Shown: positions 8,186-16,145 of the stretch, piece after piece
Numbering within the stretch: position 1 is the stretch's first letter
How the letters are laid out: every line of letters starts with the position of its first letter
Source: an uncultured Pirellulaceae bacterium
Lineage (GTDB): Bacteria; Planctomycetota; Planctomycetia; Pirellulales; Pirellulaceae
DNA length: 40,575 nucleotides
NCBI GenBank assembly: GCA_938036435.1
Contig: CALHPU010000113.1
Location: 1-40,575, forward strand
Direction: 5' to 3'
Notes under the pieces: generated by a model
What the model was told of the DNA's origin: nothing
Databases searched by the model: none
The model's input: only the letters and a program-made list of their open reading frames with translations
Translations under genes and position numbers: made by a program

Positions 8186-8695
8186 ATGACAAAATTTCAA
8201 TTTCTGATTCCGCTGGTTTTGCTAGTGGCTTTGCTGCTGGTGGCATGCGAGCAGCAAACGGCAAGCGAAACGCCGGCAATCTCTGACGACAACAAGGCCA
8301 CTGCGTCGTTTGCCGTTCGTGGAATGACATGACCGGGGTGAGACAAACTTGTAGAGAAAGCTCTACTTAAGCTACCGGGCGTAGCTTCCGCAAACGCAGA
8401 CAAAGCCACCAAGTCAGTCTCGGTGGTTTATGACAAAACGATTTTCAAGCCAGAAGAACTCAGCACCCTTGGACGATACGCGTTCGAACTCGTTGATTCG
8501 GGCGAGGAGTCTGGGCAATCTGATGCTTCACTTTCCTCCACCGAGAAAACCGAAACGTCATCAGAGGCTGGCACCGAACCGCCAAGCCAGTTTGACTTAG
8601 GCGACTTCAGCAAAATGGAACCGGCTGAAACAGCCGATACTGGCGGTCAAGAAGATGAACTGCCATTGCTGGGCGGACCCGAAACCGAGAAGTAA
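8186..8695 (+). CDS. HMA-domain lipoprotein with two in-frame TGA codons (putative di-selenocysteine protein)
   Basis: Read through two TGA codons, this is a 169-residue lipoprotein. Residues 1-21 are a signal peptide ending in the lipobox LVAC (lipidated Cys21). Residues about 40-105 form one complete heavy-metal-associated domain: ASFAVRGMT-x-PG-x-DKLVEKALLKLPGV, then VSVVYDK and LSTLGRYAFELVDS. The two x positions, residues 49 and 52, are exactly the metal-binding cysteines of GMTCxxC, and both are TGA (8330-8332, 8339-8341). The remaining 60 residues are an acidic, Ser/Thr/Glu-rich tail. Selenocysteine at both sites (UxxU) is the best reading. A periplasm-facing role in binding soft metals or in redox chemistry is inferred. 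A gene caller would report only the part from GTG 8423. The alternative, a pseudogene, needs two nonsense changes at just these codons. Confidence 0.85.
8330..8341 (+). other. Recoded UGA pair: U-P-G-U at the HMA metal site
   Basis: The codons are TGA CCG GGG TGA, following GGA ATG ACA and preceding GAC AAA. Family alignment demands Cys at both TGA positions, and TGC or TGT differs from TGA by one base. Neighbouring genes such as ileS and the sarcosine oxidase end in TGA, so TGA is a normal stop in this genome and is not globally reassigned. Confidence 0.85.
8351..8366 (+). promoter_or_regulatory. Candidate bacterial SECIS hairpin 1
   Basis: The perfect 6-bp stem GTAGAG/CTCTAC closes an AAAG loop. 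The loop starts 24 bases after the first TGA and 15 after the second. Bacterial SECIS elements lie inside the coding region, usually with the apical loop about 16-37 bases after the UGA and a G early in the loop. If the top G-C pair opens, the loop reads GAAAGC and meets this rule. SelB recognition is inferred. Confidence 0.55.
8369..8387 (+). promoter_or_regulatory. Candidate bacterial SECIS hairpin 2
   Basis: The perfect 7-bp stem AAGCTAC/GTAGCTT closes the loop CGGGC, which has G at its second position. The loop begins 34 bases after the second TGA, inside the usual bacterial range. It follows hairpin 1 after two bases, so each TGA could have its own hairpin, or the two could stack. Confidence 0.55.
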
Positions 8696-8723: not shown

Positions 8724-8762
8724 AAACACTGACAAACCGTCCGCGGCTGTCAGTGTTTTTTT
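8724..8762 (+). terminator. Intrinsic terminator of the HMA lipoprotein gene
   Basis: The 11-bp stem AAACACTGACA/TGTCAGTGTTT is followed by an unbroken T-run to 8762. It lies 28 bases after the stop at 8695 on the coding strand. It marks the end of a genuine transcription unit, which argues that the TGA-containing gene is expressed and not decayed. Confidence 0.88.
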
Positions 8763-14878: not shown

Positions 14879-16033
14879 TCAACCGGCAGCGATTTCTCTG
14901 ATGGCCGCGACCGCGATCTCAACTTGCTCAGCGGTATTGAAATGCCCAATGCTAATCCGCACCAGCCCATCGACATCGGTCCCCAGAGATTGGTGCAACA
15001 ACGGCGAGCAATGAAAACCAGAGCGCGTTTGAATTTGGAATGAGCTATCGAAAATTCCTGCTATCGTCGCCGAATCGTATCCATCGACCGAAAAAGCAAT
15101 CACTGGCATCCTGTCCACATTGGGTTCTGGCCCGAAAACTCCCACACCCGCGATCTTGCTTATCACGCAAAGCGCATCAGTGGCCAGCTGTTTGCTGCGT
15201 TGAACTCCAGCGCGTCCTTCTGCTGATTCAAGGAACCCAATACCTGCGCCCAACCCTGCGATTGCTGGCACGTTCAGGCTGCCGGCCTCAAGCATTGCCG
15301 GCATCGTGGTCGGCTGCCCTTGATCAACGCGCTCGCTGCCGGTTCCACCGAACCTTAGCGGCCTTAGGCGATCAGTCACCGACGGGGCACAATACAGTAT
15401 TCCCGTTCCCAGCGGGCCTAGCAGTCCCTTATGCCCCGCGCAGGCAAGAAACTGACAATTGATCGATTGGACATCGACCGGTAGGTGCCCCAAAGTCTGC
15501 GCGGCGTCCAGCAAAAAAGCCACTTCGCGCGAGGAGCAAATCTCACCGATCTCTCGAGCGGGTTGAATCGTCCCCAGCACGTTGCTGGCATGCGTCACGG
15601 CAACGAGCGTGGTTTTCGAAGTAATCGCATCGGCGATAGCGCTCGATTGAACGAAGCCCTCTTCATCGCAATCGACGATGGTCAGTTCGATGACGCCGGC
15701 ATCTCGCAATTCGATCAACGGGCGTACCACAGAGTTGTGATCTACCGTTGTCGTGATCGCGTGGTCACCCTGCTTCAGGAAACCGAAAATGGCGGTGGAC
15801 AGCGAATCGGTGCACCCGCTGGTAAACGCGACGCGGCTTGCATCTTCAACACCAATCAGACGGCTGACGCTTTGCCGCGTTTGTTTGATGATCTTTCCTG
15901 CCTCAACGCTGCTTGAGTATCCGCCACGCGCCGCAGAAACGCCGACGCTGCGCAGCGTCTCATCGACCGCAAGATAAACCGATTCGGGCTTAGGCCAAGA
16001 GGTTGCTGCATTGTCGAGATAAATTCGAGGCAT
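14879..16033 (-). CDS. Class V aminotransferase, cysteine desulfurase family
   Basis: This PLP enzyme of 384 residues probably releases sulfur (or selenium) from cysteine (or selenocysteine). Visible sites are IYLDNAATSWPKPE near the start, His99 stacking on PLP, Asp177 in LLDAAQT, and the Schiff-base Lys202 in ACAGHKG. The mobile-loop catalytic Cys342 is in RSGFHCSPLLH. The opening YLDNAATSWPKPESV resembles the cysteine desulfurase family defined around Enterococcus EF2568 more than IscS or SufS; some members of that family sit with selenium-dependent enzymes. ATG 16033 directly precedes the conserved strand; ATG 16066 is an alternative. No iscU or suf genes are near, so its acceptor is unknown. 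Confidence 0.82.
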   Translation of the reverse strand: MPRIYLDNAATSWPKPESVYLAVDETLRSVGVSAARGGYSSSVEAGKIIKQTRQSVSRLIGVEDASRVAFTSGCTDSLSTAIFGFLKQGDHAITTTVDHNSVVRPLIELRDAGVIELTIVDCDEEGFVQSSAIADAITSKTTLVAVTHASNVLGTIQPAREIGEICSSREVAFLLDAAQTLGHLPVDVQSINCQFLACAGHKGLLGPLGTGILYCAPSVTDRLRPLRFGGTGSERVDQGQPTTMPAMLEAGSLNVPAIAGLGAGIGFLESAEGRAGVQRSKQLATDALCVISKIAGVGVFGPEPNVDRMPVIAFSVDGYDSATIAGIFDSSFQIQTRSGFHCSPLLHQSLGTDVDGLVRISIGHFNTAEQVEIAVAAIREIAAG

Positions 16034-16145
16034 GGAGATCGGTGTTCTTTCGCGATCGAGAAACATTCATTTTAGTCTCAAGCCAGCAAAATTTCGATAG
16101 CCCACTCGATCGCGGCAGGATTTCAACCGTTGGCTACGTTGTTTC

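Follow-up and report, generated by a model that had tools for sequence, protein, structure and literature searches.

Can a bacterium place selenocysteine (Sec) at both metal-ligand positions of an exported heavy-metal-associated (HMA) domain? This question is raised by a gene in the window, the whole 40,575-nucleotide stretch analysed here, which comes from an uncultured Pirellulaceae bacterium represented by an assembly of 4.57 Mb in 176 contigs, with 89.75% completeness. A preliminary description of this DNA had reported a frame interrupted only by two TGA codons, one at each Cys position of an HMA domain. Its coordinates proved exact (Table 1), and a frame scan revealed no other in-frame stop between 8186 and 8695. 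When U was entered as C, the translation matched Pfam HMA (PF00403) over residues 42-92 with 49.4 bits, against a cut-off of 24.8, and a six-frame search scored the same domain at 33.9 bits. TGA codons 49 and 52 correspond to both ligand positions of the Pfam model, as had been claimed, and the ligand loop reads GMTUPGU, versus GMTCxxC in Cys HMA domains. As for the remaining parts, the full HMA domain, the acidic tail (~65 residues) and the terminator-like repeat were confirmed, while the signal peptide and lipobox LVAC were recognised by eye only. The protein is nevertheless very likely a lipoprotein, judging from its translation, and the lipobox Cys is nearly invariant across alignment A1, which consists of the window protein and 14 same-genus relatives (four UxxU and ten UxxxU). 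Scanned against Rfam with gathering thresholds applied, the window gave no match, and no tRNA genes were found within it.

Table 1. Coordinates of the gene, its predicted parts and its 3' flank in the window
Feature	Position	Strand	Remarks
Predicted double-Sec HMA lipoprotein CDS	8186..8695	+	169 aa with TGA read through, U49 and U52; start ATG 8186, end TAA 8693-8695
Putative signal peptide and lipobox LVAC	8186..8248	+	Read by eye; predicted lipidation Cys21 = codon 8246-8248
HMA domain, residues 42-92	8309..8461	+	Pfam PF00403
UGA, first metal-ligand position (Sec49)	8330..8332	+	TGA in 15/15 sequences of A1
UGA, second metal-ligand position (Sec52)	8339..8341	+	TGA in 15/15 sequences of A1; one codon farther (UxxxU) in 10/15
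Putative bacterial SECIS hairpin GUAGAG-AAAG-CUCUAC	8351..8366	+	Just 3' of second UGA
Acidic, low-complexity C-terminal tail	8462..8692	+	Ends LPLLGGPETEK; read from translation
Intrinsic-terminator-like inverted repeat	8724..8762	+	11-base perfect arms, 13-base loop, 7-T run; 3' of stop

The preliminary description had called for a search of homologues, and this spoke for an intact gene. Among 40 relatives searched, 25 gave matches. Four of the same genus (G001, G008, G011 and G013, each read in frame) encode a protein of this type, with GMTUPGU and both TGAs, nine (G002, G006, G007, G016, G017, G018, G019, G022 and G024) encode a shorter protein with GMVUGxAU that is missing the acidic tail, and G009 encodes a longer protein with GMVUGASU; in the latter ten, three residues separate the two Secs. 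One further two-TGA relative, G037, was discarded and its match not counted, because both TGAs sit beyond the HMA domain. In a search of a plasmid collection, four records matched, none covering >80% of the query. The 52 codons 3' of the second UGA are under purifying selection, with dN 0.196, dS 1.49 and dN/dS 0.13 between the window gene and its G001 counterpart. Six other pairs of the same type gave dN/dS values of 0.09-0.21 over this region, and the remaining three had saturated dS. In the comparison with G001, dS was saturated 5' of the first UGA and the tail gave a dN/dS of 0.34. The gene order epimerase, 412-aa protein, double-Sec gene, FAD oxidase and pyridine-nucleotide oxidoreductase is shared with G001, G008 and G013. 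In the latter two, the final pair of genes is separated by about 2 kb, and the short G011 contig retains the inner three genes of that order. The gene is thus not decaying, because the TGAs are kept in four genomes, selection is purifying after the second UGA and gene order is conserved. Decayed homologue frames, which had been named as evidence that would count against a selenoprotein, were not seen. Two related lipoproteins, G009:C105 (L227) with GMTUPGGU and G020:C4 (L219) with GMTUPGGC, suggest that the second ligand can switch between Sec and Cys inside a single genus.

We consider it probable that the gene encodes a selenoprotein, a Cys21-anchored periplasmic lipoprotein with both UGAs read by tRNA-Sec, that captures soft metal through its GMTUPGU loop. 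HMA loops are established binding sites for Cu(I), Hg(II) and similar ions, and as a ligand Sec is both softer and more acidic than Cys. The lipid anchor at Cys21 would hold the protein on the periplasmic side of the membrane, with one HMA domain tethered through a linker and followed by a flexible acidic tail. tRNA-Sec would read both UGAs, most likely with one downstream hairpin serving both codons. Outside the cytoplasm, the resulting selenolate pair would most likely capture a soft metal, e.g., Cu(I) or Hg(II), and could act as a buffer or hand-over site for it. The preliminary description proposed that such a soft-metal or redox site would be stronger than CxxC. In keeping with such a role, the protein matched 18 sequences of solved structure, metal-ATPase HMA domains (mostly for Cu, one for Zn) with MerP last, that is, metal carriers. 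The one genomic pointer to metal that we found lies outside the genus, in G230:C149 (L250, L096), where a gene for a UxxxU HMA-thioredoxin protein directly adjoins a MerT-HMA gene (Pfam MerT, 44.6 bits versus a cut-off of 32.9; MerTP, 106.6 bits versus a cut-off of 180).

The same selenium pair could instead serve redox chemistry, which we regard as unlikely: UxxU would cycle between diselenol and diselenide, in thiol-disulfide or peroxide reactions, on an HMA scaffold that carries no metal cargo. An oxidising periplasm could hold a selenol pair as diselenide, which would favour such a role. It is also consistent with redox chemistry that five other Sec genes of the host genome belong to the AhpC-TSA family, that the G230 Sec-HMA domain is fused to a thioredoxin domain, and that a scan of ten neighbours of the window gene, which include an N-methyltryptophan-oxidase-like FAD protein, a transhydrogenase-like flavoprotein and a porin, recognised no metal gene. 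The few other Sec-HMA neighbourhoods that were scanned named no metal. Against it, the scaffold is an HMA domain with a GMTxxxx loop rather than a thioredoxin fold, and the relatives of solved structure carry metals.

Whether the UGAs could be decoded was addressed by profile searches for the Sec machinery, which the preliminary description had proposed, and which gave a divided answer. The host genome has a tRNA-Sec (70.3 bits; anticodon UCA according to ARAGORN) and selD (269.4 bits), but neither selA nor selB scored above cut-off in its incomplete assembly. Among 24 other same-genus genomes, selA was above cut-off in 19, selB in 22 and tRNA-Sec in 21, and in 17 of the 19 genomes passing both, the selA and selB genes are on separate contigs. 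In G001, selB, selA and epmA adjoin; the host genome keeps the epmA-kdsB-pyrG block (gene names that we assign from their sequences) with a different gene upstream of epmA. We considered that selA and selB might be hidden in a contig gap beside epmA, and ruled this out as the host contig continues past it. Their placement thus varies between same-genus genomes, and incompleteness of the assembly is the simplest reading of the missing selA and selB. G003 (80% complete) also counts against decoding, having two one-TGA HMA genes and none of selA, selB and tRNA-Sec above cut-off.

The selD genes of G021, G023, G024, G026, G032 and G035 have one in-frame TGA and probably encode a Sec-containing SelD; in the host and the 21 remaining same-genus genomes SelD is free of TGA, with an open frame of 733-792 codons. 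Another gene that caught our attention, at 14879-16063 on the minus strand of the window, encodes a class-V aminotransferase that scores above the cut-off of the TIGR01977 cysteine desulfurase family and reaches 272.7 bits to the selenocysteine lyase SclA, below cut-off. It has a relative at the same place in G001.

The host genome also seems to contain other selenoprotein genes. Among its 21 AhpC-TSA matches, five have exactly one internal in-frame TGA, and these read WUPFC, FUPPC, WUPYC, GUPPC and TUPPF, which look like typical Sec sites. The TUPPF thioredoxin-like selenoprotein frame follows an EF-hand-like stretch, identified by eye (L236, contig C57). Failure to find selA and selB, either in the host assembly or at their G001 position, could mean that the selenium trait has been or is being lost, and that the window gene is a relict whose UGAs are now stops, leaving a 48-residue lipopeptide. 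This is very improbable given that tRNA-Sec and selD are present, the five other TGA-bearing genes have intact frames, dN/dS is low after the TGAs and the assembly is incomplete. An assembly or sequencing error, or a changed code in which UGA is read as Trp or Cys, found no support and has next to no likelihood, in view of the same two TGAs in other assemblies of the genus, the use of TGA as terminal stop by 5 of the 18 long ORFs of the window, and the ligand positions of the TGAs in the genus-wide HMA matches that were read. The earlier proposal that an exported, lipid-anchored protein has Sec at both of its HMA ligands is supported by kept TGAs, codon-level selection, Cys/Sec exchange, tRNA-Sec and other selenoprotein genes, and we attach a high probability to the double-Sec HMA protein being genuine. 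Of the marks by which bacterial selenoproteins are recognised, three were found: coding conserved to either side of the UGAs, Cys homologues that align at Sec, and a tRNA-Sec in the genome.

A SECIS element in the window gene is likely but not proved. Depending on register, the loop of the putative hairpin (Table 1) lies 23-24 or 22-23 nt from the first UGA and 14-15 or 13-14 nt from the second. The bacterial rule in the available text of PMC13188914 asks for 16-37 nt after the UGA, a G among the first two loop positions and a minimum free energy of -7.5 or lower. The window hairpin has the G in the 22-23/13-14 registers, its spacing from the second UGA is below the published 16 nt, and its energy is -5.8 kcal/mol alone and -7.5 for a 39-nt stretch, while the gene does not fold better than its synonymous shuffles (z -1.03, p 0.16). 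All five UxxU genes have a hairpin in a sliding register, its loop beginning 22-26 nt 3' of the first UGA. In 11 UxxxU genes (alignment A2), a 10-pair stem is paired in 82.7% of cells, with 4 of its 10 pairs changed on both sides, and six slid controls were all lower on every measure. Folding against codon shuffles gave a mean z of -1.30 for 36 Sec genes and -0.44 for 23 Cys sites (28 loci offered, five without the loop pattern dropped, three of the 23 fetched twice); the Cys sites lean in the same direction, with a summed z of -2.09, and such sums are not probabilities because the Sec genes are related. Eleven same-genus UxxC genes showed no excess folding (z -0.98 to 0.93). Another hairpin present in all five UxxU genes, AAGCUAC-CGGGC-GUAGCUU (loop +44), was rejected as a second SECIS: with a mean z of -0.15 over the 36 Sec genes, it is no stabler than synonymous shuffles, and conserved LPGV codons therefore explain it.

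How does this protein relate to known systems? The preliminary description knew of no described lipoprotein of this type with two Secs; double-Sec metal-binding proteins are, however, already catalogued. The available text of the 2026 review PMC13188914 lists NF041115, a UxxU family with two Sec, as a putative mercuric reductase, together with a mercuric transport selenoprotein and a UxxC metal ATPase; no word beginning with HMA or planctomyc was found in that text. The same UxxU entry is listed in the portion of PMC9312934 available, a MerP selenoprotein in that of PMC2398784, and selenoprotein genes in two other planctomycetes in that of PMC4807772. A search of the open-licence literature found no paper on planctomycete selenoproteins with a heavy-metal-associated domain, nor on Mariniblastus selenoproteins.

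NF041115 (UxxU_metal_bind, "metal-binding (seleno)protein") shares with the window protein an HMA/CopZ-like domain with Sec at both ligands and two residues in between. However, it is a short family with a 74-position model, whereas the window protein is longer, apparently lipid-anchored and ends in an acidic tail. The latter would work like this family but is not filed in it, because its score of 30.9 bits is short of the 95-bit cut-off, which none of 60 relatives pass. NF045683 (MerT_CopZ_Se), named as a heavy-metal transport selenoprotein, also has a CopZ-like part but differs in being a MerT/CopZ fusion-like protein (22.3 bits for the window protein versus a cut-off of 375). The periplasmic mercury-binding protein MerP (TIGR02052) is, like the window protein, an exported single HMA domain (32.4 bits versus a cut-off of 92.55). 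MerP uses Cys ligands and is not known to have a lipid anchor. Finally, CopZ and the HMA domains of Cu-ATPases (PF00403) share the domain and the GMTxxxx ligand loop but have CxxC, unlike the UxxU of the window protein. These domains are cytoplasmic. Double-Sec metal binders are thus already known, and the window gene is part of a wider Sec-HMA radiation that merits separate description.

That radiation is apparent within the genus. When 28 same-genus genomes were searched with Pfam HMA, 75 matches resulted, 30 without internal stop, 31 with one TGA, eight with two and six short; the short ones begin after the UGAs of UxxxU genes already counted in A1. The placement of TGA at HMA ligand codons is beyond chance, because it holds for all one-TGA genes (31/31, each read, the first ligand codon being TGA and the second ligand Cys) and all two-TGA genes (8/8, at both ligand codons). 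Sec-HMA genes occur in 23 of the 28 genomes. One of the 30 stop-free matches, G024:C34:3025-3207, shows two TGAs when the match is longer, and profile searching listed a further two-TGA HMA match at G430:C1:2437431-2437616. A UxxC Sec-HMA domain stands behind a YceI-like domain, Pfam-tested in L210 and recognised by eye in L209, L211, L213, L228, L237 and L238.

Searches of 392 genomes of the phylum and 149 of the family found further Sec-HMA proteins, many with three residues between the ligands, as in L089, L093, L249, L260, L261 and L264 (UxxxC or UxxxU). The distinct domains in all fetched DNA comprise 29 UxxC, 14 UxxxC, 13 UxxxU, five UxxU, 124 CxxC and one CxxxC. Three-residue spacing is thus seen in 27 of 61 Sec domains but in a single one of the 125 domains with Cys (Fisher p 1.5e-14, a value computed on related rows with kinship ignored, from a query that was itself partly UxxxU). 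The count leaves aside three-spaced stretches at L140, L121, L070, L184 and L187, judged by eye to be chance, and eight CxxC stretches that did not fit the loop pattern (132 to 124). The loop-length tree, from which loci L107-L162 were left out, has only two supported independent pairs, and a descent-corrected test therefore cannot reach significance. On this tree of short, poorly resolved sequences, the UxxxU label needs three changes, at least two of them forced by supported branches, and UxxU one.

The window protein belongs to a large exported Sec-HMA set in Planctomycetota, many members of which have an extra inter-ligand residue, and which is new. Tentatively, and with some doubt, this set of lipoproteins and YceI or thioredoxin fusions may form a selenium-based periplasmic layer for soft-metal handling, in which double-Sec arose more than once and selenium is linked to the UxxxU/UxxxC geometry, which is almost absent from the Cys HMA domains of this data set. 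Selenoproteins whose function is known are mostly redox enzymes. That an exported domain with two Sec ligands in its metal site is conserved strongly hints at selenium serving as an extracytoplasmic metal ligand, and the occurrence of UxxU, UxxxU, UxxC, UxxxC and CxxC forms in one genus offers natural variants for direct measurement.
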